Of a DNA stretch of 36,771 nt, positions 9,973 through 34,078 are shown one piece after another. Position numbers and translations under genes: made by a program. Positions within the stretch are counted from its first letter, which is position 1. Every line of letters starts with the position of its first letter. Source of the stretch: a virus; the IMG/VR virus record IMGVR_UViG_3300031785_000018, positions 1-36,771 of that record. One strand, given 5' to 3'. Below the pieces are notes generated by a model that ran no database searches, was not told the origin of the DNA, and saw nothing but the letters and a program-made list of their open reading frames with translations.

Positions 9973-10152
9973 ATGGCACATGAAGATTTAGTGTCATACT
10001 ATAAATTAAATTTTGCTTTGATGCAGCACCATAAATATAGTTTAACTGAACTTGAGAACATGATGCCTTGGGAGAGAGAAATTTACGTTTCACTACTCCA
10101 ACAATATGTTGAAGAGGAAAATTTAAAAGCACAACAAGAACGTAATGGATGA
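9973..10152 (+). CDS. Small tail-assembly chaperone-like protein (59 aa), possibly a gp26 extension
   Basis: The ATG at 9973 opens a 59-codon frame ending TGA at 10150-10152, overlapping the next gene by eight bases. The product is helical: LNFALMQHHKYSLTELENMMPWEREIYVSLLQQYVEEEN. The pattern, a short helix, then SL-x-E-L-E, M-P-W-E, and a long L..Y.EEE helix, resembles the C-terminal T-type part of G/GT tail-assembly chaperones encoded just before tape-measure genes. It occupies the place of gene 51 in T4. The ATG has no Shine-Dalgarno at usable distance, consistent with expression as a gp26 fusion (see 9944-9964). Confidence 0.7.
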   Translation: MAHEDLVSYYKLNFALMQHHKYSLTELENMMPWEREIYVSLLQQYVEEENLKAQQERNG

Positions 10153-19309: not shown

Positions 19310-22300
19310 ATGCCTCTTAATAAGTTAGAGAATTTTATAAAGAATACTGAGGGTCGTGTTCTTTATGTAAATCCAAATGATCTTGATTCCACTGATGGTA
19401 TAGAGAATCAAGGTAATTCATTAACCAAACCCTTCAAGACGATTCAGAGAGCACTGATAGAGGCTGCTAGATTCTCATATCTTCGTGGAAATGATAACGA
19501 CTTAGTAGAAAGAACAACAATATTAATATTTCCTGGCGACCATATAATTGATAATAGACCTGGTTTTGGTATTCGTAATGAGGCAGGAATCGCAAAAGCG
19601 ATTAGTCCAAGTGGTGCTGCAACAGGTGCACAAAATACTCTAACCCTTACTTTAAATTCAAATTTTGATTTAACACAAGAAGATAATATACTTTACAAGT
19701 TTAATAGTGTAAATGGTGGTATAGTTGTACCTAGAGGTACATCTATAGTTGGATTAGATTTAAGAAAAACAAGGATTAGACCATTATATGTACCAAACCC
19801 AACAGATGATAATGTTCCAACATCTGCAATTTTTAGAATCACTGGTGCTTGTTACTTCTGGCAGTTTACATTCTTTGATGGTGATGAATCAGGTTTAGTA
19901 TATACAGACCCTTCAGACTTTAGTGCAAACAATCAATCAAAACCAACATTTTCTCATCATAAAATCACTGCGTTTGAATATGCAGATGGTGTGAATACTC
20001 TTGATAATTTTAGTGATTTAACTGACTTAGACATTTATTATAGTAAACTCACTAACGCATTTAATAGAGCATCTAATCGTGAGATAGATCAAAAATACCC
20101 ATCAGCCCCTGCTGCTTTCGCACCACAAAGACCAGAATTTGAAATAGTTGGTGCATTTGCAACTGACCCACTCAATATTACGAATATCGAATCGGGTGAC
20201 GGTGCAACACCTGGTCAAGTTGTAACAGTTACAACTCAAACAAATCATAATCTCACAGGTGGAACACCAATCAAGGTTCGTGGAATAAACGTACCAGACT
20301 ACAACATATCAACGAAAGTATCAAATGTTATTGATGCAACTAGATTTCAATACTCTTTAGAATTTGTTAGACCAAACTTACCAGCAGGTTCTGCTGGAGG
20401 GTTAAGTTCTGCAAACGGGCAAGTATTAGTTGAAACTGATACAGTTACGGGTGCATCACCATACATCTTTAACTGCTCAATGCGTTCTGTATATGGTATG
20501 CAGGGTTTACATGCAGATGGTTCTAAAGCGACTGGTTTTAAATCAATGGTGACTGCACAGTTTACAGCAGTATCTCTACAGAAAGATGATAGAGCATTTG
20601 TAAAGTATGATAAGACAAATAGAAGATACAGTGGTATTGCATTCTCAAAACAGACAGGTGCACTATTATCTTCCGAATCATCATCAACAAATCCACAGAC
20701 AGTATTTCATTTAGATCAAGAAGCTAATTATAGAAAAGGATTTAGAACTACACACATTAAGGTATCAAATGACGCAGTTGTTCAGATTGTGTCAGTGTTT
20801 GCAATTGGTTTCCACGCACACTTTGAAATGATAAATGGTGCTGACGCATCTATTACAAACTCAAACTCAAACTTTGGTACATTTGCACTTTTAGCTGAAG
20901 GATTTAAGAAAGAATCATTTGCAAAGGATAATAAAGGATTCATTACATCTGTTATCACTCCTCGTTCAGTTGTAAATGAAGAGCAGCAAATAGAATTTTT
21001 ACAAATTGATGTCTCAGAAACTACAGCAACTAAATTATTCTTATTTGCTCAACCAACTTTAACATTACCACCAGCACACATAGCTCAAGGTTTCAGAATT
21101 GGTGCAAGAAATGATGAAAAATTATATATTGATAATGGAGGAAGCACATTCTCTGCAACTGTTGTTATGCCAAATGGTGCTTCTGGCACATCAAATGTGG
21201 GTGAAAAAAATTATGAAGCAACTCATTCTGATGCGAGTGCTTCTATCAAATCAGTATTTACAATCGCTGCTGGACACGAACTAGCAAACGGTGAGTCCAT
21301 TAGGATTATTGCAGATAATGGTGATTTACCTGAGAATATTGACCCACACACAGTGTATTTTGCAATTACAGCTGCTCAAGATTCTAACTTATTTGCAAAT
21401 CAAATTCGTATTGCATCATCAAAAACAAATGCTGATTTAGCAATTCCTGTTTTTGTTGCAACGGTTGCAAGTGTAACTGATAAGTTTAGAATTGTAAGTA
21501 AAGTATCAGATAAAAAACCAAATGATGCTGGACATCCAATTCAATACGATACAAGTGCAGGACAATGGTTCGTTCATACACTTGCTGCTGGCAATACAAT
21601 TCATAATGGTTCTTCAATATACGCAAATGCAACTGATGATGATATTACATATGTCCTTAGAAAGGATGACGATAGAAGTTTAGATGAGAAGATATACAAA
21701 TTAAGATATGTTGTTCCTAAAGAATTAACAAATGGAAGAGATCCAACAGACGGATTTGTTTTACAAGACTCAAGTTCAACTAATGTTTTAGCAGATACTG
21801 ATTTTAGTAAGACTACGATTGGTTCAAATGATTATGCTTTTGATCGTAATACACGATTCATATCTCAAGCAAGTTTCGATAGTACAGATCAATTAGCTAA
21901 AATTCGTTCAGATAAACCACATAACTTAGGTGTTGGTGATCAAATTATCATTACAAACGTAGTAAGTTCAACAAATTCCACCGCCTTACCTAATAAAGGT
22001 TACAACGGAACTTTTGTTGTTGCTGAAATTGTTAATGACAAAGAGTTTAGATATTCTCCGACTGATACATTAGGTGTAACTCATACAACTGGTACTTTTA
22101 CAAACAATACACAAACTCGTTCAACATTATTACCACGATTTGATCGTAACAATAATAGTGGAAACTTCTTCATCTATAGAACTGAAACTATTACACCTTA
22201 TATCGAAGGAGTACAAGATGGTGTTCATCATCTATTTGTATTGAATAGTAATAATTCTATGGATGAACCATCCAATGAATTTGTTGAAAACAAATATAAT

Positions 22301-25027
22301 CAAAATATAGTCAACCTTTTTCCAGAATATGATCGTGATAATGTTGATGCCAACCCACCAGCAGCAGTTTCTTACGCAAAGAGATTTCCAATTGGTGAGG
22401 TTATAACAAATGATCTTAAGAAAAGTATCACCAGAGAGACAACTAACCAATTCCTTAAAAACTTTGATGGTTCGATTGGTATTACTTCAGTAACAAATAA
22501 CAGCACAAATGCTGTTATCAATTTAGATAGTGAACATAGTTTTGAATCATTGAAGTTTCATAATACATTGAATGGTGGTTCAGGACATACAGATGGCACA
22601 TATTACAATGTAAGATTATTGAATACTAATGCAACTCCAGCGACTGCACCTTGGGATGGTGCGACTGCAAAAGTTGTTGTATCAGGAAATTCTGTTACTT
22701 CTGTTGAAATAACTGATGGTGGTTCTAACTATACAGATGGTGAAACATTGTTCTTTGATACTCAGTCCACTGCACTTGGTGGTATTGGTGGTGCACCAAA
22801 TGCAAGCATTACGATTGCAACTGCTGGTATATCAACAGCGACTGGTCATTATATTCAAGTAACTGGTATTACAACTGGAACTGATTCTTACCATCGTATT
22901 TCAACTATTAATAGTACAAAACAAATAACTGTAGCTAAATCCGCTGCTGATACTTTATTAGATGGACAACAGATTCATGATATGGGTCCTTGGATTTTAG
23001 TTGGTTCTGCATCCACTACATCAGGAACTACCACATTCACCACTCCTGTAGACCACGGACTTGCAGTTGGTAACAAATTTAGAATCCTGAATAGTAATGA
23101 TGTTTCACTTGGTGACTTTGTTGTTACTTCAGTTGTTGGTATTACAGAATTCTCAGCTAAAACAACAACTTCGCTGACAGATGCAAAATATATCTTGAAA
23201 CATGGTTTATCAGATAATGAATCAATTTCAGGTGTCGCAGGAGAAAATATTGATGTAAGAGGATTCAATATATTCGATCATGAGACATTAATTCTAAATG
23301 AAGCAGTGGGAACAGGTGACTCTGCATTTAAGGTTAAATTACCTGATGGAGGAACCAATGCTACATCAATTACAAAGAGATTTCCTCTAGGGTCTTACAT
23401 CCAAATTGGTGGTGAGATTATGCGTGTTGCTTCCAGCACACTATCAGGTGGAGGTGGAGATGAGATTACAGTTATTCGTGGTTCACTTGGTACTAATACT
23501 GAAACTCATCTTATCAATTCTAGAATTAAGAAAGTAAAACCATTACCAATTGAACTTCGTAGACCATCAATACTAAGGTCATCAGGACATACATTTGAAT
23601 ACGTTGGTTTTGGTCCAGGTAACTATTCAACTGCATTACCACAACTACAGAACAGATCACTGACTGAAAGAGAGGAGTTCTTAAATCAAGCACAAGAAAC
23701 ATCTTGTGGTAACGTTGTTTACACTGGTATGAATGATAAAGGTGACTTCTATATTGGAAACACCAAGATAGCATCTGCTAGTGGACAACAAACTACATTT
23801 GATATACCAGTCGCTACAGTCACAGGTGAAGATCCAAATCGTTTGAGTGCTGTATTTGATGAAGTTGTTGTTAAAGAGAGACTACTTGTTGAAGGTGGAG
23901 CATCGAAACAAATACTATCACAGTTTGATGGTCCTGTGACATTCAACAGTGACTTAAGACTATCTGATAATACTAAGCAACTTATTACTGAGGCAGAAAT
24001 TCGTGCACAAGATGCTAAATTTAGAAGCACTCTTAACTCAACTGCAGTAACAAATGGTGCAGTTGTTATAGATGGTGGTGTGGGTATTGCAAAGAGTATT
24101 ACTATCGGTGGAGATATAGTCGGTTCAGGAACTCCTGATATTGTTGGGTTTGGTTCGATTACAGCAGATACATTCTTTGGTGATGGTGCTGGATTATTAA
24201 ATACTGGTTCAACATTATCTGCTGCATCAGGAACACAAAGAGTTGTGCTTACCAGTTTAACATCTGGTCAAATGACAACTACTGCTACAGATGCAGATAT
24301 CACATTTGATGCTTCTACCAATACTTTAAATGTTGCAAATATCAGTTCGAGTGGTAATTTGAATGGTAATGCAACCACTGCAACCACTGCAACAAATGTT
24401 GTTGGTGCTGCAAACAGAGTTATATTTAATAATAACACTAATACAACAACCACATCTGCTAATTTCACATATGATGGAACACAACTAAACGTTGCTGGTG
24501 ATATAAGAGCTGATGGTATCAGACTTGGATTCACCAATGGTACTACAATTGATACTGTATCAGGTGATTTGACATTAGATTCATCAAACAATAAGGTTAT
24601 AGCAGATGCTGTATTTGAAGTTACAAATAGTACAAACGCAAGTAGTAAAGATACAGGTGCTTTAATTATTACTAATGGTGGACTTGGTGTTGAAGGTAAC
24701 ATTCATTCTGGTGGAGATATAGTTGCGTTCAGTTCATCTGATATGACACTTAAAGAAAACATATCACCAATTTCAAATGCTCTGGAAATGATTAATTCGC
24801 TTACAGGTAATACTTTTGCTTGGAGACCAGAGGCTGGCATTATGGGTAATTCTGGTATGGATACAGGTATCATCGCACAAGAGGTTGAGGCACTTGGATT
24901 ACCAGGTGTTGCTAAGAGAAGAGGTGATGGTACAATGGGTGTTCGATATGACAGATTAATACCTGTTTTAATTGAAGCAGTCAAAGAATTAACTGCAAAA
25001 GTTAAATCACTTGAATCAAATAAATAA
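19310..25027 (+). CDS. Giant tail-fibre protein with C-terminal S74 chaperone domain
   Basis: This 1905-aa virion protein opens with RVLYVNPNDLDSTDGIENQG and KPFKTIQRALIEAARFSYLRG, the start of a pectate-lyase-like right-handed beta-helix common in cyanophage tail proteins. The long shaft is strand-rich and contains at least four H-x-L-x-x-G-x-x-(I/F) modules (nucleotides about 20246, 21267, 21911 and 23047). The last 100 residues are an S74 intramolecular chaperone: SDMTLKENI (about 1809-1817), GIIAQEVEALGLPGV and YDRLIPVLIEAVKEL with a C-terminal coiled coil. Such domains drive trimerisation then cleave themselves, so the mature fibre probably ends near residue 1808. It recognises or contacts the host surface. 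A late element lies upstream. Confidence 0.85.
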   Translation: MPLNKLENFIKNTEGRVLYVNPNDLDSTDGIENQGNSLTKPFKTIQRALIEAARFSYLRGNDNDLVERTTILIFPGDHIIDNRPGFGIRNEAGIAKAISPSGAATGAQNTLTLTLNSNFDLTQEDNILYKFNSVNGGIVVPRGTSIVGLDLRKTRIRPLYVPNPTDDNVPTSAIFRITGACYFWQFTFFDGDESGLVYTDPSDFSANNQSKPTFSHHKITAFEYADGVNTLDNFSDLTDLDIYYSKLTNAFNRASNREIDQKYPSAPAAFAPQRPEFEIVGAFATDPLNITNIESGDGATPGQVVTVTTQTNHNLTGGTPIKVRGINVPDYNISTKVSNVIDATRFQYSLEFVRPNLPAGSAGGLSSANGQVLVETDTVTGASPYIFNCSMRSVYGMQGLHADGSKATGFKSMVTAQFTAVSLQKDDRAFVKYDKTNRRYSGIAFSKQTGALLSSESSSTNPQTVFHLDQEANYRKGFRTTHIKVSNDAVVQIVSVFAIGFHAHFEMINGADASITNSNSNFGTFALLAEGFKKESFAKDNKGFITSVITPRSVVNEEQQIEFLQIDVSETTATKLFLFAQPTLTLPPAHIAQGFRIGARNDEKLYIDNGGSTFSATVVMPNGASGTSNVGEKNYEATHSDASASIKSVFTIAAGHELANGESIRIIADNGDLPENIDPHTVYFAITAAQDSNLFANQIRIASSKTNADLAIPVFVATVASVTDKFRIVSKVSDKKPNDAGHPIQYDTSAGQWFVHTLAAGNTIHNGSSIYANATDDDITYVLRKDDDRSLDEKIYKLRYVVPKELTNGRDPTDGFVLQDSSSTNVLADTDFSKTTIGSNDYAFDRNTRFISQASFDSTDQLAKIRSDKPHNLGVGDQIIITNVVSSTNSTALPNKGYNGTFVVAEIVNDKEFRYSPTDTLGVTHTTGTFTNNTQTRSTLLPRFDRNNNSGNFFIYRTETITPYIEGVQDGVHHLFVLNSNNSMDEPSNEFVENKYNQNIVNLFPEYDRDNVDANPPAAVSYAKRFPIGEVITNDLKKSITRETTNQFLKNFDGSIGITSVTNNSTNAVINLDSEHSFESLKFHNTLNGGSGHTDGTYYNVRLLNTNATPATAPWDGATAKVVVSGNSVTSVEITDGGSNYTDGETLFFDTQSTALGGIGGAPNASITIATAGISTATGHYIQVTGITTGTDSYHRISTINSTKQITVAKSAADTLLDGQQIHDMGPWILVGSASTTSGTTTFTTPVDHGLAVGNKFRILNSNDVSLGDFVVTSVVGITEFSAKTTTSLTDAKYILKHGLSDNESISGVAGENIDVRGFNIFDHETLILNEAVGTGDSAFKVKLPDGGTNATSITKRFPLGSYIQIGGEIMRVASSTLSGGGGDEITVIRGSLGTNTETHLINSRIKKVKPLPIELRRPSILRSSGHTFEYVGFGPGNYSTALPQLQNRSLTEREEFLNQAQETSCGNVVYTGMNDKGDFYIGNTKIASASGQQTTFDIPVATVTGEDPNRLSAVFDEVVVKERLLVEGGASKQILSQFDGPVTFNSDLRLSDNTKQLITEAEIRAQDAKFRSTLNSTAVTNGAVVIDGGVGIAKSITIGGDIVGSGTPDIVGFGSITADTFFGDGAGLLNTGSTLSAASGTQRVVLTSLTSGQMTTTATDADITFDASTNTLNVANISSSGNLNGNATTATTATNVVGAANRVIFNNNTNTTTTSANFTYDGTQLNVAGDIRADGIRLGFTNGTTIDTVSGDLTLDSSNNKVIADAVFEVTNSTNASSKDTGALIITNGGLGVEGNIHSGGDIVAFSSSDMTLKENISPISNALEMINSLTGNTFAWRPEAGIMGNSGMDTGIIAQEVEALGLPGVAKRRGDGTMGVRYDRLIPVLIEAVKELTAKVKSLESNK

Positions 25028-25042
25028 CTAAAAAAATAACTG

Positions 25043-27097
25043 ATGGCAAATATCAAGAAGAATTTTAATTTTCGTAACGGTGTTCAGGTCGATGATGACA
25101 ACCTGTTAGTAACAGCTACTGGTCTGGTTGGTATCGGAACCACCATCCCAGTAGAAGCTCTTGATGTCAGAGGTAATGTTATTATTACTGGTTTTACCAG
25201 TGCAACATCACAAAATGTAGGATTTTTAACAGTTGCAACACTAGAACCAACAAAAATAATTGGTGCAGGTATTAGTGTTGTAAGTGGAATTGTAACAGCA
25301 TCAGGAACAGGTATTTTAACTTTCTTTGGTGATGCAAGTAATTTATTAGGAATGCCAACTTCTCAATGGGAGGATGTTGATGTAGGATTAGGATTTACAA
25401 GTATATACAATACAGGTGGAAACGTTGGTGTAGGTACTGAAGATCCCCGTTCTACAATTCAGGCAGGTGGAAATGTTGATGCTGGTGAGAGAGGTGTTGG
25501 TATCAGTTCAGTTGGTAATATAAATGCTGCTGGAATCATTACTGCTGCGTCTTTTGTTGGAGATTTGACAGGTAATATTGTTAGTGCATCTGCATTCTCA
25601 GGTAATATAGATTTAAATGCAGATCTTGATGTAGATGGACATACAAATCTTGATAATGTAAGTATATCTGGTGTAACAACTACTTCTGGAAATGTTATTA
25701 TAAACGCTGATCTAGATGTTGATGGTCATACAAACCTTGATAATGTAAACATCACTGGAGTCACAACAACTACTGGAAACGTTGACATAAACGCTGATCT
25801 AGATGTTGACGGACATACTAATCTTGATAATTTAAGTGTTGCTGGTGTCTCTACATTTTCTGGTCCGATTGTTGGAACAAGTGGAGCAACAATTAATAGT
25901 GTTACGATTGGTATAGAATCTCCCAGTGCTATTTCAGCAGTCGGTAGTAATTTAAATTTAACATCTGATGGTGGCACAACTTCAATTACAAATGACCTTG
26001 GAGTAACAGGAGTATCAACATTTAGTAATGATGTTGCAGTCGCAGGTATAACAACAACTAAAAATTTATTGGTCACAGGTGTAACTACTTTTAGTGGAGC
26101 AGTTAACGCAACTTCCATAGAAGTTCCTAACGCTACAGTCACTACAAAACTTGGAGTTGGTACTACTGATACTCCTGTAAGTGACATACAGGTTACAAAG
26201 ACTAGTCTCGCTGAAATTCAGATATGTAGTACAGGTAGTGTTGCACAACTCAATGTTGGTAAAGAAGTTGGAACATCAAAGACTCACACATCTCAAATAA
26301 GATTTGGTGGTGGTGCTGGTGCACCTTATAGTGCATCTGGTACATCATTAGATATTATTAATTATGACACAGGTAACTTTAATTATCATTTAAGTGGTAA
26401 TAATGCTGCTGCAGTAGTTGGAGATTTTCATTGGCATAAAGGCATCAACTCTGCTAGATTGATGACCTTAACTGGTATTGGAGGTTCACTTGGTATAGGT
26501 AATACACAACCAACAAAAGAATTAGATGTCACTGGTGCTGGTAATTTTAGTGGTGACGTTACTGTTGGTAATAATTTAACAGTTGGTGGAGCATTATTAG
26601 GTAATGTGCAGGGAACTTTAACAGGTAATGTTTCAGGAACTCTTCAAGGTAATTCTAATACAACTGTTGGTATATCAACTTTAAACAATCTAACAATAGC
26701 AGGTATTGTTACAGCTTCACAAGCATCAATTACTTCAATTGGTATTGGAACAAACCCTGAAGCTAACAGACCACTTAGAATTAATGATATACCAAGTGAG
26801 AGAATTTTCGTTACAAGCACTGGTTCAATAGGTATTCAAACATCTCTCGTATTTGGTGGTATTGGTATAAATGCTTCAAGTACTACATTGTCTGTTGGTG
26901 CGATAGGTGTTGGTGTGACTATACTTCATAAAGCAGCAGATTTCTCAAATGCTGGACTATCCACGAATAGAATGTTAGTATTACCAAAGGTAAATGGAAC
27001 TGGTGGTTTACAAGACCCTGTTTCTGGTGCAATAGTTTATAATACAGCTACAAATAGAGTGATGTTCTACAATGGAAGTTCTTGGGGTAACATTTAA
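25043..27097 (+). CDS. Repeat-rich tail-fibre protein (684 aa)
   Basis: The N-terminus (MANIKKNFNFRNGVQVDDDNLLVTATGLVGIGTT) is a fibre head. The shaft carries many GVST(F/T)SG and VGIGT-x-x-P segments and three in-frame 29-residue repeats at about residues 192-278. A globular insertion (AQLNVGKEVGTSKTHTSQIRFGGG to HWHKGINSARLM, about 395-475) interrupts the repeats and may be the receptor-binding part. The C-terminus GAIVYNTATNRVMFYNGSSW is the same tip module as in the 184-aa protein at 18157. Unlike the preceding fibre it has no S74 chaperone. It lies 15 bases after that gene and three before the glycine-rich one. Confidence 0.8.
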   Translation: MANIKKNFNFRNGVQVDDDNLLVTATGLVGIGTTIPVEALDVRGNVIITGFTSATSQNVGFLTVATLEPTKIIGAGISVVSGIVTASGTGILTFFGDASNLLGMPTSQWEDVDVGLGFTSIYNTGGNVGVGTEDPRSTIQAGGNVDAGERGVGISSVGNINAAGIITAASFVGDLTGNIVSASAFSGNIDLNADLDVDGHTNLDNVSISGVTTTSGNVIINADLDVDGHTNLDNVNITGVTTTTGNVDINADLDVDGHTNLDNLSVAGVSTFSGPIVGTSGATINSVTIGIESPSAISAVGSNLNLTSDGGTTSITNDLGVTGVSTFSNDVAVAGITTTKNLLVTGVTTFSGAVNATSIEVPNATVTTKLGVGTTDTPVSDIQVTKTSLAEIQICSTGSVAQLNVGKEVGTSKTHTSQIRFGGGAGAPYSASGTSLDIINYDTGNFNYHLSGNNAAAVVGDFHWHKGINSARLMTLTGIGGSLGIGNTQPTKELDVTGAGNFSGDVTVGNNLTVGGALLGNVQGTLTGNVSGTLQGNSNTTVGISTLNNLTIAGIVTASQASITSIGIGTNPEANRPLRINDIPSERIFVTSTGSIGIQTSLVFGGIGINASSTTLSVGAIGVGVTILHKAADFSNAGLSTNRMLVLPKVNGTGGLQDPVSGAIVYNTATNRVMFYNGSSWGNI
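25616..25876 (+). repeat. Three tandem 87-bp in-frame repeats in the fibre gene
   Basis: Units begin at 25616, 25703 and 25790, exactly 29 codons apart, each encoding N-A-D-L-D-V-D-G-H-T-N-L-D-N. The third unit diverges in its second half (SVAGVSTFSG). Differences are mostly synonymous, so the copies are old or selected rather than a fresh duplication. Confidence 0.9.
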
Positions 27098-27099
27098 GA

Positions 27100-28068
27100 A
27101 TGGCGATTAAAGGATCTGGAAGTTCACTCTCATTTACAGAGATAGAAGCAGAGTTTGGGCAAAATGGTTCAAGATCACTTGGTGCTTATCGTCTTTCTCA
27201 AAATATAGGTTCATTATCAAACCTACCTTTAGATTCAGGTATTCCGACATCAGGACAGATAAAGTTTAGTGATTTTTATAGTAAAAAATTAAATATTGTA
27301 GTTGATTGTCATTCAGGTGGTGAAGAAACAAGAAAAAGTGCAAAAAATGATAAGTGGAATAATAATAATTTAACTGTTGTTGGTGGATTCCGAAGTAAAA
27401 AAGAAGGTGGAAGTAAAATTATAATTAATATCAACAAAAAGTTTTGCTCTGATAAAAGTAATGTAGCACATTGTGCATTAAAAACTGGAAGTTGGGATGC
27501 AACAGCGGTTGTTCAAGTTGATGTAGGTAGTAGTGGTAGCATACTTGGATCTGGTGGAGATGGTGGAAGAGGTCAGAATGGAATAGATGGTAGTGCTCAA
27601 GCAGGATTTGATGGTTCAAGTGGTTTAGGAATTGAAGTTAATAATTGCACCGTAAATGTTGCCAGTGGTGGTGTTGTCCGTGCTGGTTTCGGAGGAGGCG
27701 GTGGTGGTGGAGGTGGCCGCCAAGTTGACAAAGGAGAAGATAGAAGAGCCTCTGGTGGTGGAGGTGGCGGTGGAGCAGGTTGCCCACCTGGTGCAGGAGG
27801 TCCAAGAGGAAGCACCCCTTCACTTGGTAGTGATGGTAGTGCAGGATCTGAAACCACTGGTGGCGGTGGTGGTAACGGTGGTAATAACGAAAACCAAGCC
27901 TATGGTCAATCTGGTGGGTCTGGTGGACAGGCACAAGGAGGTCCAGGTGGAGCACAAGGTGGAGGTGGTGCAAATGGTGCTGCCATAAGAAGAACATCAG
28001 GATTTAGTGTGACTATCAATAATAGTGGAACAATAGCAGGTAATACAACTGCTACTGGTGTTGGTTAA
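27100..28068 (+). CDS. Glycine-rich adhesin-like tail tip protein
   Basis: Residues 1-60 contain SLSFTEIEAEFG, LGAYRL and GIPTSGQIKFSDFYSKK, a module I associate with the N-terminus of virion proteins in T4-like phages. A compact domain with several cysteines follows (about 66-140). From about residue 140 the sequence is dominated by glycine, with uninterrupted Gly runs near 195-225 separated by charged or Asn-rich loops. This recalls the polyglycine sandwich of T4 gp38-type adhesins, where Gly-rich helices hold variable receptor-binding loops. Length is 322 aa. It is the last gene before the oxygenase operon. Confidence 0.7.
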   Translation: MAIKGSGSSLSFTEIEAEFGQNGSRSLGAYRLSQNIGSLSNLPLDSGIPTSGQIKFSDFYSKKLNIVVDCHSGGEETRKSAKNDKWNNNNLTVVGGFRSKKEGGSKIIININKKFCSDKSNVAHCALKTGSWDATAVVQVDVGSSGSILGSGGDGGRGQNGIDGSAQAGFDGSSGLGIEVNNCTVNVASGGVVRAGFGGGGGGGGGRQVDKGEDRRASGGGGGGGAGCPPGAGGPRGSTPSLGSDGSAGSETTGGGGGNGGNNENQAYGQSGGSGGQAQGGPGGAQGGGGANGAAIRRTSGFSVTINNSGTIAGNTTATGVG

Positions 28069-28069
28069 G

Positions 28070-28098
28070 TTTACAAACTAGATTTTTGATGTTATAAT
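28070..28098 (+). promoter_or_regulatory. sigma70-type promoter for the oxygenase operon (TTTACA-17-TATAAT)
   Basis: TTTACA (28070-28075), a 17-base spacer and TATAAT (28093-28098) preceded by TGT form a strong host-type promoter with one -35 mismatch. It starts immediately after the glycine-rich gene stop, 22 bases before the first operon ATG. Confidence 0.88.
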
Positions 28099-28120
28099 TA
28101 GGTTGTAGACTGTCTAGATT

Positions 28121-28693
28121 ATGACATTAGAATCTGAACTTATAAGAAGATATCAAGGTGCTTTTACACCCGAAGAATGTGACGAGTACATTAAATATAT
28201 TGATCAATTTGAAGAGAGAAATATATTAACATATGATACCGAAAAATTAACTCAGGTTGATAATAAATCTGTCAATGTTACTTTTGACTACGATTTTCCA
28301 CCCTACAGTTTTTTAGCAAAAGAAATAATACCAAAATTTAAACCTTGTATAGATGAGTATATCGAAGCAGTAAATATTTTAAAAAATTATAAACTTTTAA
28401 CCTACGACTTAAAAATTAAGAAGATTCCCATAGGTGGTGGTTTTCATCAATGGCACTTCGAGAATGGTGGAATAGCATATAGTCAAAGAAAATTTGTGAT
28501 TCAATTATATTTGAATGATAATTTTGAAGGTGGTGAAACTGAATTCCTGTATCAAAATCGAAGAGAACTACCTAAACAGGGTGATGTACTTCTTTTTCCT
28601 GCAGGATTTACCCACACTCATCGTGGCAATCCACCGATTGGCGGTGACAAATATTTAATTACCTCTTGGGCATTGATACAAGATGAAGAATAG
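28121..28693 (+). CDS. 2OG-Fe(II) oxygenase, prolyl-hydroxylase-like
   Basis: The enzyme would couple 2-oxoglutarate decarboxylation to hydroxylation of a substrate, which is unknown. The double-stranded beta-helix is recognisable: GGGFHQWHFENGG carries the metal pair His112-x-Glu114, FVIQLYLNDNFEGGETEFLY is the conserved P4H middle (YLND-x-x-x-GGET), and DVLLFPAGFTHTHRGNP supplies the distal His (165 or 167). Lys177 in GDKYLITSW is a candidate 2OG carboxylate ligand. Glu instead of Asp in the HxD motif is a variation I recall in cyanophage homologues. It is the first gene of the operon and overlaps the next by 11 bases. Confidence 0.88.
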   Translation: MTLESELIRRYQGAFTPEECDEYIKYIDQFEERNILTYDTEKLTQVDNKSVNVTFDYDFPPYSFLAKEIIPKFKPCIDEYIEAVNILKNYKLLTYDLKIKKIPIGGGFHQWHFENGGIAYSQRKFVIQLYLNDNFEGGETEFLYQNRRELPKQGDVLLFPAGFTHTHRGNPPIGGDKYLITSWALIQDEE

Positions 28694-29210
28694 AAACGTA
28701 GAATTAATTAATATAGCAAGGATTGATTTACTGAAAGGTAAAACAAATATTAATCTAGATTCATTGTCTCAAATTTTACTTGACAATTATGCAACCAAAT
28801 TTGATAAAAAGGATTTAAGTTTTTACTATGAGGACTCTTACTGCCCACCGAATAAATATGTGGATACTATAATTGAAGAAATGAAGACTGATTTTTTTGC
28901 TGCTACACAGGAGAAAATTGAAGTCACTAATTACTGGGGACATATTCATGAAAAAAATATGAGTACCACACTACATAATCATGATAAAGCATATGTCTCT
29001 GCTGTTGTTTACTTGAAAATACCAGAGGGGTCTGGTAAAATTGTTTTCATACCAAGAATAAATCAATATGATAATGGTGCTTACGCAACAGATATACAAC
29101 CAGAAGAAGGAGTATATTACATCTTTCCTGGTTATCTAGATCATTGTGTAACTAGAAATATGTCAGAAGAAAAAAGAATTTCTTTATCATTTAATTTTAA
29201 AAAATTATGA
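28683..29210 (+). CDS. Putative 2OG-Fe(II) oxygenase, HNH(D) type
   Basis: The C-terminal half matches the layout of a putative 2OG-Fe(II) oxygenase family (PF13759/TIGR02466 type): TTLHNHDKAYVSAVVYLKIPEGSGKIVFIPR, then GVYYIFPGYLDHCVTRNMSEEKRISLSFNF. Likely metal ligands are His98 or His100 with Asp101, and His154; Arg165 is the likely 2OG ligand. The N-terminal 80 residues are less conserved in appearance. Length is 175 aa. Overlaps with both neighbours (11 and 4 bases) indicate coupled translation. The substrate is unknown; fibre proteins encoded just upstream are one possibility. Confidence 0.75.
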   Translation: MKNRNVELINIARIDLLKGKTNINLDSLSQILLDNYATKFDKKDLSFYYEDSYCPPNKYVDTIIEEMKTDFFAATQEKIEVTNYWGHIHEKNMSTTLHNHDKAYVSAVVYLKIPEGSGKIVFIPRINQYDNGAYATDIQPEEGVYYIFPGYLDHCVTRNMSEEKRISLSFNFKKL

Positions 29211-29554
29211 AAGTTATTATTAAAATTTTAGAATACTTATCTGAGAGAGATGCTGTTGTTATTAGATCCTGCAGGTTGAATTCGCATAAACCGATTGATA
29301 ATTATCCAGAGAAAGTCATAGATTGTTTCGATTTGAATAAGACTGATACTGAAGACTTTATCAATAGTTTAGTTGACAAAGCATCAGAGAATCTAATTAG
29401 AGAACAAGATGAAAATGAAGGTATTTTGAATGAAAATATACCAATCAAACCAACTGGTGAACTAGATTTTGAAAAAATAGTTGGAAAATTATTTGAAGCA
29501 AGACCTACCACTAGAAAAAGTAGACCTTTGAAAGTAAGGAGAATAGAATTATGA
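29207..29554 (+). CDS. Unknown 115-aa protein in the oxygenase operon
   Basis: The product begins with a hydrophobic strand-helix (MKVIIKILEYLSERDAVVIRSCRL), has an acidic middle (DKASENLIREQDENEGILNENIP) and a basic, Arg-rich end (RPTTRKSRPLKVRRIEL) that may bind nucleic acid or another protein. No metal-binding HxD pattern is present, so it is not an oxygenase. It overlaps both neighbours by four bases. It could be a partner or specificity subunit, but this is only from position. Confidence 0.7.
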   Translation: MKVIIKILEYLSERDAVVIRSCRLNSHKPIDNYPEKVIDCFDLNKTDTEDFINSLVDKASENLIREQDENEGILNENIPIKPTGELDFEKIVGKLFEARPTTRKSRPLKVRRIEL

Positions 29555-30027
29555 GTAGATTTCATAGATATTTTAAAAAATGTGAAGAATTTGCACTGTG
29601 TGCAGAAGTTAGCGATGGCAATGTTGTTGAAGTTGAAGATAAATCAGAAAGATATACTCTATATCAAATTGTTGTAAAAGGTTCTGGTCGAATGGGAAAA
29701 ATTTTTGATAATGATTACATAGTGGGAGATATAAATGGAGTTTACTTTGCAGATTTAAGAGAATACTTAGGTCATCATACAATATTTGAATCATTTGAAC
29801 CAGTGCAAATGTATGGTTTTAATACACTTGATTTAAAACAGGATTGGGATGGAAAATTAGTTGAGAGTTCATTTCAAGGTGATGACAAAAGTTGGTTAAT
29901 ATGCTTCAAAGGTAATCCAATTATTAATGGAAAAGAATTAAGAGTTATGGATTATGCTAAACTAGAAAACAAACATTACGATGTTCAACTTAATGATGCC
30001 ATAGTTGGTGTATTTACAAAATTATAA
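29551..30027 (+). CDS. Unknown 158-aa protein, beta-rich, in the oxygenase operon
   Basis: The sequence is rich in alternating hydrophobic strands (NVVEVEDKSERYTLYQIVVKGSGRM, DYIVGDINGVYFADLREY, SWLICFKGNPIINGKELRVMDY), compatible with a cupin-like beta barrel. Histidines are few (H5, HH in EYLGHHTIF, one near the end) and do not form a clear HxD or cupin metal motif, so the cupin idea is weak. It overlaps the previous gene by four bases and the next by one. Function is unknown. Confidence 0.7.
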   Translation: MSRFHRYFKKCEEFALCAEVSDGNVVEVEDKSERYTLYQIVVKGSGRMGKIFDNDYIVGDINGVYFADLREYLGHHTIFESFEPVQMYGFNTLDLKQDWDGKLVESSFQGDDKSWLICFKGNPIINGKELRVMDYAKLENKHYDVQLNDAIVGVFTKL

Positions 30028-30719
30028 TGCTTAAAATAACAGATAATGTAACTAGAATTGAAAAAGAAGTACAAGATGGCGATTTTAATTTAAATTTAAA
30101 AGACCATATATTATATCTACCATCTTTTATTAGTCCTGATGTCTGTAAAGATGTGGTGAATAATTTAAAAAATGTTGGACTTGATAAATCCACACCATAT
30201 ACAGATGGTTTATTAAATGATTATACAGATTCTTATTTTGACCCTGACATTGCAACTATTACAGATATAAAGAATAAAGTAAGTGAAGAAGCTTTGAAAC
30301 TATATGCAGAAAAAGTAAGGGCATATGATTGGTCATATCACAAGTCAGATAAATTCTTTCCATCAGAAATGATTGTGAGAAGATATAATAATAAATCTGA
30401 ATTTAGTTATCATTATGATGATATTGTTGAAGAAATATTCCCACATTGGTTTGTTAGAAGAAAGAATATATTAACTTGTAATGTTTACTTAAATGATAAT
30501 AATGAATATGAGGGTGGTGATTTGCATTTTGCATCCTGTAATCTTACATTCAAACCAAAGATAGGTGATGTTATAATTTCACCATCAAACTGGATGTTCT
30601 TTCATAAAGTAAACGAGATTACATCTGGAGTAAGATATTCTGGTACATACTGGTATTATTATGGTTCAGATAAAAAAGTTGGAAAAGGTATTAGTCACAG
30701 TAAAAACTTTCCAAAATGA
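30027..30719 (+). CDS. 2OG-Fe(II) oxygenase, prolyl-hydroxylase-like
   Basis: This 230-aa protein has the full ligand set: SYHYDDIVEE gives His129-x-Asp131, VMFF-type segment NWMFFHKVNEI gives distal His193, and Arg203 in GVRYSGTYWYYYG is the likely 2-oxoglutarate ligand. Between them, LTCNVYLNDNNEYEGGDLHF is the YLN(D/N)..(E/Y)GG(D/E)L hallmark of the prolyl 4-hydroxylase fold. The N-terminal region (about 1-110) resembles the helical lid preceding the core in such enzymes (FISPDVCKDVV). Substrate is unknown. It begins at the stop of the preceding gene (TAATG). Confidence 0.9.
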   Translation: MLKITDNVTRIEKEVQDGDFNLNLKDHILYLPSFISPDVCKDVVNNLKNVGLDKSTPYTDGLLNDYTDSYFDPDIATITDIKNKVSEEALKLYAEKVRAYDWSYHKSDKFFPSEMIVRRYNNKSEFSYHYDDIVEEIFPHWFVRRKNILTCNVYLNDNNEYEGGDLHFASCNLTFKPKIGDVIISPSNWMFFHKVNEITSGVRYSGTYWYYYGSDKKVGKGISHSKNFPK

Positions 30720-31384
30720 TTAGATATACAATGTTAGAGACACAAATATCAGAAGGACAGCACACCTCTTGCCATTTTTGTGTAGATAAATTTGAAGGAT
30801 TACTTGATAAAGGACTAGATTTATCAAAGTATGAATTATCAATTACAGATCCAAGAACACATTTTCATATTCATTATTTAAATCGAGATGGTGATTATAT
30901 GGAAAAAAATGTTCTAGATGCCTATGATATAAATGTTGACTTTCCTGTAATATTTTTTGGTAGAGAACTACCATATCGAGATGGATTTAGATGTGCATAT
31001 CATCTAAACACTTTAAAAAAATTTAATTCACCTTTTCTAAAAGATGTAATCAAAGTAATCAAATTATTTAAAGGAAACTATATTGATATAATACTTGCTA
31101 GTGATTTTACACAAAATGGTAAAGTTACAAATAAAGATATTAATATTGAAATCATACCACACATAAAAAAATATAAAGAGATTGGTAAAATATTAGAAAA
31201 AAATTTTGATTTACCAAAACTAGATTACTATAAGGGAAGTTTTGATGATTACAATGAAAAAGATTTTGCGTGGCATATCAAAATAAAATTATTTCGATAC
31301 TACAAAAAACCAATAGTCAAATTTTATAAAACATATCCTAATAATCCATATCTACATTTTAAATATTATGATAAGCAAAACTGA
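30716..31384 (+). CDS. Unknown 222-aa protein in the oxygenase operon
   Basis: Notable features are an early cysteine/histidine pair region (TSCHFCVDKFEGLLDKG), a His-rich strand (DPRTHFHIHYLNRDGD), PVIFFGRELPYRDGFRCAYHL in the middle, and a Tyr/Lys-rich C-terminal part (IKLFRYYKKPIVKFYKTYPNNPYLHF). CHFC with later histidines could hold a metal, but no known zinc or iron motif is complete. It overlaps both neighbours (4 and 17 bases). I do not recognise the family; an oxygenase-associated or sugar-handling role are guesses. Confidence 0.7.
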   Translation: MIRYTMLETQISEGQHTSCHFCVDKFEGLLDKGLDLSKYELSITDPRTHFHIHYLNRDGDYMEKNVLDAYDINVDFPVIFFGRELPYRDGFRCAYHLNTLKKFNSPFLKDVIKVIKLFKGNYIDIILASDFTQNGKVTNKDINIEIIPHIKKYKEIGKILEKNFDLPKLDYYKGSFDDYNEKDFAWHIKIKLFRYYKKPIVKFYKTYPNNPYLHFKYYDKQN

Positions 31385-31853
31385 TTTAAAAAATTTATAT
31401 GAGTGGGCAAAGGACAAAGATTTTCCTGTTAGAAAAACACCCACTACAACTGGATATTGTAACAAAGAAATTTTTAGTTTTCCACTTAAGTTTGGTCGAA
31501 AAAAACTCACAGTAAGAGAAAGTATGATGCCTGTAGAAATAAGTGATATTCTTAAAGATGAAGAGATATTATATACTGTCTATTCTATTTTTCAAGGAGG
31601 AACTATTCTTAAACCACATCGTGACCCGAACTTATATCAGTTCCCATATAAAAGAATACAAATACCGATAATCATACCTGAAGTTGGTAAATGCACAATG
31701 AAATGGATTAATGGAGACAAAATTATATGGGAAGAAGGTGTACCGCAAGTGTGTAATGTAATGTATGATGTTCATGAAGCATCTAATCTCTCAAATAAAG
31801 ATATGATTATGATGTTTATAGACGTAAAAACAGATACTATTGTTGAACTATGA
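31368..31853 (+). CDS. Aspartyl/asparaginyl beta-hydroxylase-like protein
   Basis: The core reads GGTILKPHRDPN (His84-x-Asp86), then KRIQIPIIIPEVGKCTMKW, WEEGVPQVCNVMYDVHEASNLSNKD with distal His136. This is the order typical of aspartyl/asparaginyl beta-hydroxylases: metal-binding H-R-D, an R-x-x-x-P-I-x-x-P strand, an acidic W-x-x-G, and H-x-x-x-N. These 2OG enzymes hydroxylate Asp or Asn side chains in proteins. Length is 161 aa, a minimal core. The equivalent of the family's Arg after the distal His is not obvious, so activity is not certain. It overlaps the upstream gene by 17 bases. Confidence 0.8.
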   Translation: MISKTDLKNLYEWAKDKDFPVRKTPTTTGYCNKEIFSFPLKFGRKKLTVRESMMPVEISDILKDEEILYTVYSIFQGGTILKPHRDPNLYQFPYKRIQIPIIIPEVGKCTMKWINGDKIIWEEGVPQVCNVMYDVHEASNLSNKDMIMMFIDVKTDTIVEL

Positions 31854-32389
31854 CTTTTAAACCACCTTATTGGTATCACGATAATGTAGAATTTTCATAT
31901 GAAAATTTAAAAGAACTTAAGTTTGATATTGATTTTATTGGTTCTGAGAAATATGCTAAAGAAAAACAACACATAAGTACATTTTTTTTAAATGAAAACC
32001 AAAGACCTGATATAAAACACAATGACATATATTCAACTGTGGTTCGTAATATTGTGGAAAATGTAGGTGTATATCATAAGACAAAATACAGATATACTTA
32101 CTGGACACAATTATATGAAAAGGGAATGAGACACAGACCCCATCATCACGCACATGAGGATAAAAGGTTTGATTCCGAAATATCTTGGGTTCATTTTTTA
32201 GATGTACCAAAACAAAAGTGTTTTAGATTTACAGATACAAAAGGAAATATATTAATACCTAATGAACAAAATAGTGGAGATATAATATGCTTTCCGTCTT
32301 GGGTGTGGCACGAAGTGATACCAAATCAAACTAGCGTAAGAAGAATAGTCATATCGGGAAATATAACATTCACACACTATGATGATTGA
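31850..32389 (+). CDS. Putative 2OG-Fe(II) oxygenase, His-rich
   Basis: The motif RHRPHHHAHEDKRF (about residues 94-107) gives several possible metal ligands, followed by SWVHFLDVPKQKCFRFTD, then GDIICFPSWVWHEVIPN with distal His154 and RRIVISGN with Arg164/165. The scheme matches the second oxygenase in this operon (H-x-H..., FPxxLxHxVxxN, R-x-S/I-SxN). It is the last gene of the operon; the terminator follows 14 bases after its stop. Length is 179 aa. Substrate is unknown. Confidence 0.75.
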   Translation: MTFKPPYWYHDNVEFSYENLKELKFDIDFIGSEKYAKEKQHISTFFLNENQRPDIKHNDIYSTVVRNIVENVGVYHKTKYRYTYWTQLYEKGMRHRPHHHAHEDKRFDSEISWVHFLDVPKQKCFRFTDTKGNILIPNEQNSGDIICFPSWVWHEVIPNQTSVRRIVISGNITFTHYDD

Positions 32390-32403
32390 TCAACTGTCAC
32401 AAG

Positions 32404-32424
32404 CTCCTGCACAAGGGGTTTTTT
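32404..32424 (+). terminator. Rho-independent terminator of the oxygenase operon
   Basis: CTCCT (32404-32408) pairs with AGGGG (32414-32418), one G-T pair included, around the loop GCACA, followed by six T (32419-32424). The stem is short but GC-rich and the T-run is clear. Confidence 0.75.
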
Positions 32425-32456: not shown

Positions 32457-33644
32457 ATGCAATTAAGACCCCATCAAGAGCAAGCAATTCAATCAATGTT
32501 AGACAATGACAAAGGACAAGTCATTGTTCCTACTGGTGGTGGTAAGACCATCTGTATGATTATGGATGCTGTTAAGCAGTTGGAAGATTATGGTACAGTT
32601 GTAGTCGTTGCACCACGCATACTACTTGCAGAGCAACTATGCAAAGAGTTTATGGAAATCATTGATGAGAAATACAATGATGTAGATGTGATGCACGTTC
32701 ATAGTGGTAAAATCAAAGGTATGTTCAGCACCACTAATCCACTTGAGATACAGGGATTTGTTGAGCAGAACTTAGTAAATTTTTTCAGTAGAACCATTAT
32801 ATTTACAACTTATCATTCACTACACAGGATTGAAGAAAGTGGTATTATGGTTGATACTATCTACTTTGATGAAGCACACAATTCAGTACAGAAAAACTTT
32901 TTCCCTGCTACTGATTACTTCTCACAGTATGCAGGTAGATGCTACTTCTTTACAGCAACACCAAAGCATAGTCGTTCTCCTGTCAAGGCAGGGATGAACT
33001 GGACAGAGGTGTATGGTGGTGTGATATGTCAAGTACCTGCACCAAAGTTAGTCAAGCAAGGTTACATACTACCACCTAAAGTCAAGGTATATCGTTCAAG
33101 AATACTCAAGAAAGATGAGTTGGTTGCTGATAGAGACAATGAGCAAATGATTGGTGCGATTGATAATCTTGACAAGAACAAAGTATTGATATGTGCTAAG
33201 TCAACCAGACAAATTGTTGCACTTGTATCACAGACAGATTTCGTACAGCAACTTGCGATTCGTGGTTACTCTTATATGTTCATCACAGCAAAGACAGGTG
33301 CGATGATTGATGGAGAGAAGGTTGACAGAGAGACTTTCTTCAATACACTTAATGAGTGGGGTAGAACAGACAAAAAGTTTGTTGTATTGCATCATAGCAT
33401 ACTCTCAGAGGGTATCAATGTCAATGGTCTTGAAGCAGTATTGTTTATGCGTTCGATGGACTACATAGGTATTAGTCAGACTATTGGTAGGGTCATTCGT
33501 AAGGGCGATGCTGACAAAGTATTCGGTCTTGTATGTGTACCAGTTTACTCTAATGTTGGTATTACTACCGCAAGAAAGGTTGAAGCAGTAGTCGATACTA
33601 TCTTCAACAAAGGACAAGCAGCAACAACAGTTATTACACGATGA
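32457..33644 (+). CDS. Superfamily II DEAH-box helicase
   Basis: The 395-aa product has the ordered SF2 motifs: Q-like LRPHQEQAIQ, Walker A VPTGGGKT (24-31), motif Ia VVAPRILLAEQL, Walker B FDEAHN (about 138-143), motif III FFTATP, and motif VI QTIGRVIRKG (about 340-349). It acts on DNA or RNA duplexes with ATP. T4 UvsW is 503 aa and has an N-terminal DNA-binding domain; this protein starts almost directly at the first helicase motif, so it is a core-only enzyme and I do not call it uvsW. Codons look less A/T-rich in third positions than in neighbouring genes. It overlaps the next gene by four bases. Confidence 0.85.
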   Translation: MQLRPHQEQAIQSMLDNDKGQVIVPTGGGKTICMIMDAVKQLEDYGTVVVVAPRILLAEQLCKEFMEIIDEKYNDVDVMHVHSGKIKGMFSTTNPLEIQGFVEQNLVNFFSRTIIFTTYHSLHRIEESGIMVDTIYFDEAHNSVQKNFFPATDYFSQYAGRCYFFTATPKHSRSPVKAGMNWTEVYGGVICQVPAPKLVKQGYILPPKVKVYRSRILKKDELVADRDNEQMIGAIDNLDKNKVLICAKSTRQIVALVSQTDFVQQLAIRGYSYMFITAKTGAMIDGEKVDRETFFNTLNEWGRTDKKFVVLHHSILSEGINVNGLEAVLFMRSMDYIGISQTIGRVIRKGDADKVFGLVCVPVYSNVGITTARKVEAVVDTIFNKGQAATTVITR

Positions 33645-34078
33645 GTAAAATAGTATTAGTTACAGGTGGATTTGACCCAATACATAGTGGTCATATTTCA
33701 TATTTCAAAAATGCAAAAGAATTATACCCTAATACTCCATTGTGTGTTGGTCTTAATTCTGATGAGTGGTTAATTCGTAAGAAAGGAAAGTATTTCTTAC
33801 CGATGAAAGAAAGGAGAGCAATCGTCAAAGAACTCAAACCTGTTGATTTGACGATTACTTATGATGATACAGATAACTCATCCAATATGGCAATCTACAA
33901 GTGTTTACAAATGTATGATAAAGTGATATACTGTAATGGAGGAGACAGAGTTAATACCAACGTGCCAGAATATCTTAAATTCCAACAGAATGACAGAGTT
34001 ATTTTTGAGTGGGGTGTTGGTGGCGATGACAAAATGAACAGTAGTTCTTGGATTTTGAATGAATTTTTAAAACGATGA
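33641..34078 (+). CDS. Cytidylyltransferase-like nucleotidyltransferase
   Basis: The 145-aa protein starts VLVTGGFDPIHSGHISYFKNAKEL, with the HxGH signature at His15-Ser-Gly-His18. It also shows GLNSDEWLIRKKGK and MKERRAIVKELKPVDL, both standard in small cytidylyl- and adenylyltransferases such as glycerol-3-phosphate cytidylyltransferase and the nucleotidyl domain of HldE. These activate phosphate-bearing substrates with CTP or ATP. The expected substrate, such as a lipid or sugar phosphate, cannot be read from sequence. It overlaps both neighbours by four bases, so it is co-translated with the helicase and the methyltransferase. Confidence 0.88.
   Translation: MSKIVLVTGGFDPIHSGHISYFKNAKELYPNTPLCVGLNSDEWLIRKKGKYFLPMKERRAIVKELKPVDLTITYDDTDNSSNMAIYKCLQMYDKVIYCNGGDRVNTNVPEYLKFQQNDRVIFEWGVGGDDKMNSSSWILNEFLKR

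Follow-up and report, generated by a model that had tools for sequence, protein, structure and literature searches.

The window, a stretch of 36,771 nucleotides, comes from a marine cyanophage-like virus. Its cassette of eight tightly packed genes (28121-32389) is flanked on one side by a gp38-like adhesin gene, itself preceded by two tail-fibre genes, and on the other by a helicase gene. The features are as follows.

19310-25027, + strand: long tail-fibre protein, 1905 aa, phrog_529
25043-27097, + strand: tail-fibre protein, 684 aa, phrog_3269
27100-28068, + strand: compact gp38-like Gly-rich adhesin, 322 aa, PF05268 (GP38), phrog_11439 (tail fibre)
27718-27753, + strand: adhesin loop RQVDKGEDRRAS, residues 207-218, flanked by the two longest poly-Gly tracts
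28070-28098, + strand: predicted promoter, sigma-70-type extended -10, TTTACA-N17-TATAAT with TG ahead of the second hexamer
28121-28693, + strand: OX1, 190 aa, predicted P4H-like 2OG oxygenase, PF13640, phrog_61; H112-x-E114, H167, K177
28683-29210, + strand: OX2, 175 aa, predicted PF13759 (TIGR02466-like) 2OG oxygenase, phrog_81; H98-x-H100, H154, R165
29207-29554, + strand: U3, 115 aa, no family assigned; forms with U4 the core that follows the adhesin
29551-30027, + strand: U4, 158 aa, predicted cupin fold (HutD/pirin-like); core gene
30027-30719, + strand: OX5, 230 aa, predicted PKHD/PiuC-like oxygenase, PF13640, phrog_61; H129-x-D131, H193, R203
30716-31384, + strand: U6, 222 aa, predicted ABBA (PT-barrel) fold, in the OX5-U6-OX7 triad
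31368-31853, + strand: OX7, 161 aa, predicted Asp/Asn beta-hydroxylase family, PF05118, phrog_25655; H84-x-D86, H136, R96
31850-32389, + strand: OX8, 179 aa, predicted PF13759 2OG oxygenase, phrog_81; H98-x-H100, H154, R165
32401-32421, + strand: probable intrinsic terminator, 8-pair hairpin with its 3' arm entering a T tract
32457-33644, + strand: DEAD/ResIII-type helicase, right-hand boundary of the cassette

All eight cassette ORFs lie on the + strand and each overlaps or abuts its neighbour, in agreement with a preliminary description that read the region as eight overlapping genes running from promoter to terminator beside three fibre or adhesin genes. The strong host-type promoter which that description placed at 28070 has 11/12 matches and is the top + strand site in a promoter scan. 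Since the scan returned 49 sites overall against 37.7 +/- 6.3 by chance, a slight excess only, support for the promoter rests better on its recurrence, as nine other loci have the same 11/12 element between adhesin and cassette. At the opposite end, the intrinsic terminator described near 32404 is plausible from its hairpin and T tract; the segment 32391-32430 folds with -8.9 kcal/mol, and a simple terminator scan did not pick the hairpin up. P-SSM2 has a matching gene order, with a 1908 aa fibre 59% identical to the product of 19310-25027, a counterpart of the shorter fibre protein and a helicase that is 64% identical.

Five of the cassette ORFs exceed the Pfam gathering cutoffs as Fe(II)/2OG oxygenases: OX1 and OX5 with PF13640 (40.2 and 47.0 bits, cutoff 27), OX2 and OX8 with PF13759 (64.5 and 37.4 bits, cutoff 27) and OX7 with PF05118 (32.3 bits, cutoff 22.6). 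Profiles and ligands together support the prediction of five such enzymes from three families, which bears out the initial count of five oxygenases of at least three subtypes. The metal ligands and the basic 2OG-binding residue are conserved in 107 OX1, 12 OX2, 12 OX5, 40 OX7 and 4 OX8 sequences; in OX2 and OX8 the HxH motif is present and the exact metal triad is putative. Measured against locus L014, which has the same eight genes and one further oxygenase, dN/dS is 0.07-0.20 for the oxygenases, indicating purifying selection. Homologues of OX7 that are 43-44% identical occur in P-HM1, P-HM2 and MED4-213. Single oxygenases had been described as common in marine T4-like phages; in cyanophages it is normal to have several, with up to five annotated 2OG oxygenases per genome among 16 isolates (PMC3037559 Table 3), and only their clustering in one adhesin-side operon is unusual.

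AlkB-type repair or modification of nucleic acids has been suggested for the 2OG genes of Syn9 that adjoin uvsX/uvsY (PMC2984593), and OX1 relatives are also found near uvsY (locus L048). However, the cassette gives no AlkB-family Pfam match, its families being the three named above, and the nearest solved structures are of the prolyl 4-hydroxylase and PiuC types. For these reasons a nucleic-acid target is disfavoured, and we consider it highly improbable. Matches to a defence library were confined to generic '2OG, CRISPR-associated' models.

The remaining three genes are not oxygenases, so that the earlier picture of an oxygenase operon holds for five genes of the eight. None of U3, U4 and U6 has a Pfam match, and searches of their profiles against PDB sequences gave no meaningful match. 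The AlphaFold model of U4 (pLDDT 94.4) resembles 1yll and HutD, with VIA Z-scores of 12.6 and 12.3, respectively. Its alignment has the invariant residues C17, G44, G89, F90, W99, G121, N126, Y135, Y143 and F155, and because a metal-binding His is absent from among them we do not class U4 as an enzymatic cupin but as a predicted metal-less cupin-fold protein. U6 is a candidate prenyltransferase by its predicted fold. Its model (pLDDT 87.3) has a best Foldseek E-value of 1.2e-4 (prob 1.00), and the best 50 VIA matches are all ABBA prenyltransferases (Z 9.0-10.2, rmsd 4-5), including the ribosomal-peptide prenyltransferases KgpF, PagF and DciF. Invariant K/R residues are present in the U6 alignment, and the OX5-U6-OX7 triad recurs in relatives. 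No NCBIfam match to U6 was found. Among isolated phages, U3 and U4 were matched only by the single-cell virus AG-345-D19 and U6 by none, while a pattern search for U6 in cellular genomes found nothing with the patterns used.

The adhesin matches PF05268 over residues 81-315, the Gly-rich receptor-binding domain, with 26.7 bits against a cutoff of 25. Its alignment displays poly-Gly tracts and variable loops, and gene order would place it at the tip of the fibre. Tips of the gp38 type are reported to bind receptors by means of variable loops carried on a PGII sandwich (PMC12892980).

In a nucleotide search, no isolated phage matched the region. Relatives were surveyed by two contig scans that used the helicase as a neutral anchor, with loci deduplicated. 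Oxygenases are present in 24 of the 25 loci positive for a gp38-like adhesin as opposed to 2 of the 20 negative loci (Fisher p=2e-9), and the gp38-minus slots contain no oxygenase by Pfam. An oxygenase cassette thus accompanies this compact adhesin in almost every relative that has it and is almost never seen in relatives that lack it, so that the refuting outcome named at the outset, a cluster lost or scattered among close relatives sharing the fibres, did not arise. On the helicase tree the adhesin and oxygenase traits each change eight times; phylogenetically independent pairs are concordant in five cases and opposite in none, an underpowered comparison (p=0.0625). Cassette content follows adhesin distance when helicase distance is given (partial Mantel r=0.47, 0/2000 permutations) but not helicase distance when adhesin distance is given (r=0.00). 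The pairing has exceptions: L208/L209 and AG-345-L05 carry a gp38-like protein between the two fibre genes with no cassette behind it, and isolated cyanophages have OX1 and OX7 homologues outside fibre regions as well. In the cultured phage S-RIM2 (host WH7803), an OX1 homologue is found amid putative fibre/adhesin genes (locus L279). Nor is Gly-richness alone the link, because the large Gly-rich tips of P-SSM2-like relatives have no cassette; the broader rule that any Gly-rich tip protein pairs with oxygenases was rejected.

In P-SSM2-like myoviruses the cassette slot is hypervariable, with up to seven Pfam-confirmed oxygenases, and across relatives gene content varies beside the host-recognition genes. 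The flank of the adhesin could thus be a recombination hotspot that gathers unrelated cargo, the oxygenases having various targets and only a positional link to the adhesin. Many contigs end near the slot, and under-recruiting host-recognition islands are described in the section on such islands in a metaviromic study of marine phages (PMC3909814). Yet the same slot beside other tip proteins gathers no oxygenases (2/20 loci), content tracks the adhesin but not the helicase, although both adjoin the slot, and U3-U4 form a constant core of the cassettes. We therefore judge a hotspot of unrelated cargo to be improbable. More doubtful still is an auxiliary metabolic role, in which the enzymes shift host 2-oxoglutarate pools or nitrogen signalling, as Sullivan et al. 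2010 (PMC3037559) suggested for the 2OG oxygenases of cyanophages; a role of this kind would call for neither three subfamilies nor a protein with a prenyltransferase fold, nor for any coupling to an adhesin.

Some relatives' cassettes add a PF04820 flavoprotein, a methyltransferase or a sulfotransferase-like protein, and an S8 peptidase is found only in L044-L046. The nearest NCBIfam models to the flavoproteins, weakly matched, are QhpG/GoxB, which are protein-cofactor maturases. A role as Trp halogenase was considered for the cassette flavoprotein and withdrawn, as the WxWxIP signature is absent from the main group in spite of its strong PF04820 match.

The exchange of enzyme sets together with the tip gene in relatives suggests that the phage decorates its own host-recognition protein. 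We count this co-occurrence and co-variation in favour of the adhesin as target, and likewise the repertoire of P4H-like, AspH-family and PKHD-like enzymes, PF04820 flavoprotein, methyltransferase and U6, which amounts to side-chain tailoring chemistry. The leading explanation, that the gp38-like adhesin of the phage itself has its side chains modified by the cassette enzymes, is in our estimate evenly balanced between true and false. Activity of the enzymes, the adhesin as their substrate and an effect of modification on binding are inferred. The operon would then be one form of a tailoring cassette that is hypervariable and coupled to the adhesin, in which a host-type promoter of its own would drive five oxygenases, a PT-barrel protein, a metal-less cupin and the small U3. 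Side chains of the adhesin may be hydroxylated and possibly prenylated, and in relatives further chemistry might include flavin-dependent oxidation or halogenation, methylation and perhaps sulfation. The modified sites would probably lie in loops protruding from the poly-glycine sandwich, and receptor-binding chemistry would be diversified by exchanging enzymes as well as loop sequences. More tentatively, and with somewhat less than even confidence, we propose that phages swap cassettes of hydroxylases, prenyltransferase-like proteins, halogenase-family flavoproteins, methyltransferases and sulfotransferase-like proteins to diversify the poly-glycine adhesin loops chemically, as a second layer of host range beyond sequence.

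The amino-acid composition of the adhesin shows no visible enrichment in keeping with the enzymes of the locus, whether in Trp where a PF04820 flavoprotein is encoded or in Pro where P4H-like enzymes are. Column-by-column associations between residues and enzymes gave many matches, mostly explained by relatedness, and were set aside. In a tree-based simulation for the loop between the poly-Gly tracts, nominal association beyond the tree was confined to 2 of 13 enzyme families, OXc206 (p=0.007) and OX2 (p=0.026), uncorrected. From an exploratory association, adhesin D210 (27727-27729) is a candidate modification site only. No fusion of an oxygenase to a fibre protein was found among the loci examined, which yielded one long ORF only.

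The main rival to adhesin modification is that the enzymes act in the infected host, on a molecule of its surface (lipid A/LPS, a surface glycan or a membrane protein) or on a small molecule. The receptor might, for example, be altered to exclude superinfecting phages, and linkage to the adhesin kept because the receptor is shared. Joint swapping with the adhesin is expected here too if receptor type dictates both, and the separate host-type promoter, which fits early expression of host-directed enzymes, counts against the adhesin reading. OX7 weakly resembles the models of two lipid hydroxylases, LpxO for lipid A and OlsC for ornithine lipids (E 6e-6), but its 25.6 bits fall far under their cutoffs of 450-500, and no exporter or glycosyltransferase was recognised among the cassette genes. 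We regard host-surface modification as unlikely, though deserving of weight. Of the targets first entertained, fibres, host surface or nucleic acid, the adhesin or fibre is now favoured, the host surface is the remaining rival and nucleic acid has receded.

If the target is indeed the adhesin, sequence alone would not encode how phages bind their receptors, and a lytic virus would bring along the enzymes needed to place non-standard side chains on its host-recognition tip. This would give a concrete role to some marine-phage 2OG oxygenases, so far ascribed to DNA repair or nitrogen metabolism, and offer a source of enzymes acting on a folded poly-glycine protein.

That host-recognition islands of marine phages contain Fe(II) oxygenases and Gp38 has been noted before; the adhesin coupling, the combinatorial enzyme set and the prenyltransferase-like member appear to be new. 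In their account of under-recruiting islands, Mizuno et al. 2014 (PMC3909814) list eight genes for Fe(II)-dependent oxygenases and three for the Gp38 adhesin alongside tail fibres, as found together here, and file these under host recognition. Clustered enzymes, a coupling of enzymes to the adhesin, members with a prenyltransferase fold, flavoproteins and a mechanism of modification do not feature in that account. Among known cyanophage 2OG-Fe(II) oxygenases (phrog_61, phrog_81; T4-GC 104/240/412/611), to whose families OX1/OX5 and OX2/OX8, respectively, belong, the majority of those examined in isolates adjoin capsid/uvsY or replication/metabolic genes and do not form a group of five in an operon behind an adhesin. 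The adhesin shares poly-Gly tracts, variable loops and a PF05268 match with gp38 of the T2/S16/PP01 type, but its N-terminal part differs and it barely passes the Pfam cutoff; for enterobacterial gp38, the parts of the literature drawn on here mention no modifying enzymes. The predicted fold of U6 matches ABBA prenyltransferases (CloQ/NphB, indole prenyltransferases, cyanobactin PagF/KgpF) over ~200 of its 222 residues with Z of 9-10, whereas it is shorter than these enzymes (~280-400 aa), is only 5-12% identical to them and has no sequence-profile match. RiPP clusters, among which we do not count the cassette, differ in that the target proposed here is a folded virion adhesin instead of a leader-bearing precursor peptide, and no such precursor, processing protease or exporter was identified in the window's cassette, but they are alike in outline: a gene for a ribosomal target is followed by exchangeable enzymes that modify side chains.

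The 36.8-kb virus fragment is assigned to a T4-like cyanomyovirus because its gp32 is 81% identical to that of Prochlorococcus phage P-SSM2 and its gene order (gp59-gp32-gp53-gp48-...-gp26-...-lysozyme hub-fibres-helicase) is the P-SSM2 order. Two large products of its baseplate region (10145-13485; 570 and 542 aa) have no PHROG match; their P-SSM2 counterparts are 35-37% identical over part of their length. Downstream of the fibres, the preliminary description had claimed an operon of eight genes with five predicted 2OG-Fe(II) oxygenases (OX), and both counts hold: each of the eight ORFs overlaps or abuts the next, and five products exceed Pfam cutoffs.

27100-28068, plus strand: compact gp38-like adhesin
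27718-27753: exploratory candidate loop of the adhesin, RQVDKGEDRRAS, flanked by its two longest Gly tracts
28121-32389, plus strand: operon, in the order OX1, OX2, U3, U4, OX5, U6, OX7, OX8
OX1: PF13640, above Pfam cutoff
OX2: PF13759, above Pfam cutoff
OX5: PF13640, above Pfam cutoff
OX7: PF05118, above Pfam cutoff
OX8: PF13759, above Pfam cutoff
32457-33644, plus strand: helicase, the right-hand border
33641-34078: HldE-C/cytidylyltransferase-like gene

The last gene is kept behind the helicase in relatives and is relocated beside U3-U4 in AG-345-D19 (L005; L numbers denote loci of related viruses).

Four of the five oxygenases are members of phrog_61 or phrog_81, oxygenase families of cyanophages; the Phold paper (PMC12774648) notes a resemblance of phrog_61 proteins to the human prolyl hydroxylase EGLN3. 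The metal motifs described earlier are borne out, as the metal and co-substrate residues of all five are conserved across relatives: H112-x-E114...H167...K177 in OX1, H129-x-D131...H193...R203 in OX5, H84-x-D86...H136 plus R96 in OX7, and H98-x-H100...H154...R165 in OX2 and OX8. Compared with L014, which has the same eight genes and one further oxygenase, dN/dS is 0.07-0.20 for all eight, indicating purifying selection similar to that on the helicase (0.13). The proposed promoter (TTTACA-N17-TATAAT, extended -10) was also confirmed, and a hairpin and T tract after the last gene make the proposed terminator plausible. The same 11/12 promoter element occurs in the adhesin-cassette gap of nine other loci, in one of which it precedes U3 rather than OX1.

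Searches of Pfam, NCBIfam, the PDB and cellular genomes yielded no sequence relatives of U6 (222 aa). Its AlphaFold model (pLDDT 87, pTM 0.86) matches ABBA-fold aromatic prenyltransferases in Foldseek (E 1.2e-4, probability 1.00), and the best 50 VIA structure comparisons are all to ABBA prenyltransferases (Z 9.0-10.2, rmsd 4-5 Å, ~170-208 residues), among them three that act on ribosomal peptides (KgpF, DciF, PagF). U6 is smaller than known members, and the prenyltransferase-barrel assignment is one of predicted fold, not function. The same fold is predicted for two uncharacterised proteins of Synechococcus phages, BFVD A0A0E3HAV3 (ACG-2014e) and A0A1D8KJE1 (S-CAM3), about 284 and 325 aa long, so prenyltransferase-barrel proteins may be more widespread in cyanophages. 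U4 is modelled (pLDDT 94) as a cupin-type barrel whose nearest structural neighbours are HutD and pirins (Z 12.6 to 1yll); the U4 alignment contains no invariant histidine, so U4 is probably not a metal enzyme.

Among IMG/VR relatives, the slot between adhesin and helicase is a hypervariable cassette, usually arranged as gp38-like, OX1, (oxygenase), U3, U4, variable genes and helicase. The variable part includes 2OG oxygenases from the Pfam families already seen in the window, the OX5-U6-OX7 triad, a flavoprotein of PF04820 (E 7e-83 in L020, 2e-70 in L229), a SAM methyltransferase (L036, L273) and a protein that resembles sulfotransferases but scores under the Pfam cutoff. L273 carries seven Pfam-confirmed oxygenases in one slot, together with U6 and the methyltransferase. 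The main-group PF04820 proteins lack the halogenase signature WxWxIP, and their nearest NCBIfam models, both weak matches, are QhpG and GoxB, maturases of protein-derived cofactors. The cassettes of L020, L023, L026, L031, L149, L212 and L229-L233 share an opposite-strand PF04820 flavoprotein gene with one or two small ORFs behind it, most copies being without WxWxIP. A subtilase (S8 peptidase) occupies the slot in L044-L046 (5673-7346 in L045), where a 930-990-aa gp38-like fusion is followed by OX1. Many helicase-anchored contigs stop somewhere in the ~1 kb preceding the helicase and therefore within the variable slot, the pattern that assembly breakage at a hypervariable island would give.

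Co-occurrence was surveyed in two scans anchored on the helicase as a neutral neighbour, keeping loci with both fibre and helicase visible and dropping near-duplicates. Oxygenases were present in the slot of 24 of 25 loci with a gp38-like adhesin, vs 2 of 20 without (Fisher p=2e-9); no Pfam oxygenase was found among 27 proteins in adhesin-negative slots. The two adhesin-negative exceptions, L188 and L193, may hold a diverged adhesin, because both encode a PF04820 protein with a halogenase signature (WIWQIP, plus strand) and the L188 slot contains a 375-aa Gly-rich protein. In the reverse exception, L208/L209, the two fibre genes flank the gp38-like gene, an arrangement shared by the single-cell virus AG-345-L05. 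Gly-richness itself was rejected as the partner trait since other relatives with large Gly-rich tip proteins lack the cassette; the partner is the compact adhesin type.

The helicase tree implies eight changes of each trait, and phylogenetically independent pairs gave five agreements, no disagreement and two without difference (p=0.0625), evidence that is consistent with coupling but underpowered. Across 31 loci, cassette composition correlated with adhesin divergence when the helicase was held constant (partial r 0.47, 0/2000 permutations), whereas its correlation with helicase divergence, adhesin held constant, was 0.00. This Mantel result, like the slots beside other tip proteins that lack oxygenases, weakens the explanation that the adhesin flank is a recombination hotspot with unrelated cargo. 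Neither 2OG-pool metabolism (PMC3037559) nor DNA repair (PMC2984593) accounts for the enzyme diversity or the adhesin coupling.

Oxygenases also flank fibres elsewhere. In other P-SSM2-like viruses, PiuC-like and other 2OG oxygenase genes immediately precede the gene for the long fibre, a second such position (P-SSM2, L111, 27677-28270; L280, 8392-10086). In cultured phage S-RIM2 (L279, 2886-5569), an OX1 homologue lies between two putative adhesin genes of the fibre region, the first with a sub-threshold Fibrinogen_C match and the second fibrinogen-like by eye only.

The gp38 adhesins bind receptors via variable loops carried by a poly-glycine sandwich (PMC12892980). The cassette chemistries act on side chains. 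Read most simply, the enzymes would modify those of the adhesin, most likely in its loops, before mounting; we infer that they are active, that the adhesin is their substrate and that binding is changed. The central Asp of RQVDKGEDRRAS is present in 39 of 46 OX1-bearing vs 0 of 5 OX1-lacking loci (p=3e-4, uncorrected and ignoring relatedness). Against a tree-simulated null, only 2 of 13 families, OXc206 (a cassette enzyme family; p=0.007) and OX2 (p=0.026), were associated with the loop, which is a hint. The main rival is modification of the host surface or a small molecule: a promoter of host type fits early expression, and dependence on a common receptor would likewise couple cassette to adhesin.

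Sullivan et al. 2010 (PMC3037559) list cyanophage genomes with as many as five 2OG oxygenases, and Mizuno et al. 2014 (PMC3909814) assign the eight Fe(II) oxygenase genes and three Gp38 genes of metaviromic islands to host recognition. In the open-licence literature, the only literature searched, no publication describing an adhesin-coupled tailoring cassette in phages came up. The cassette belongs with variable host-recognition islands, a known kind; adhesin modification, if demonstrated, would make it a new kind of system.
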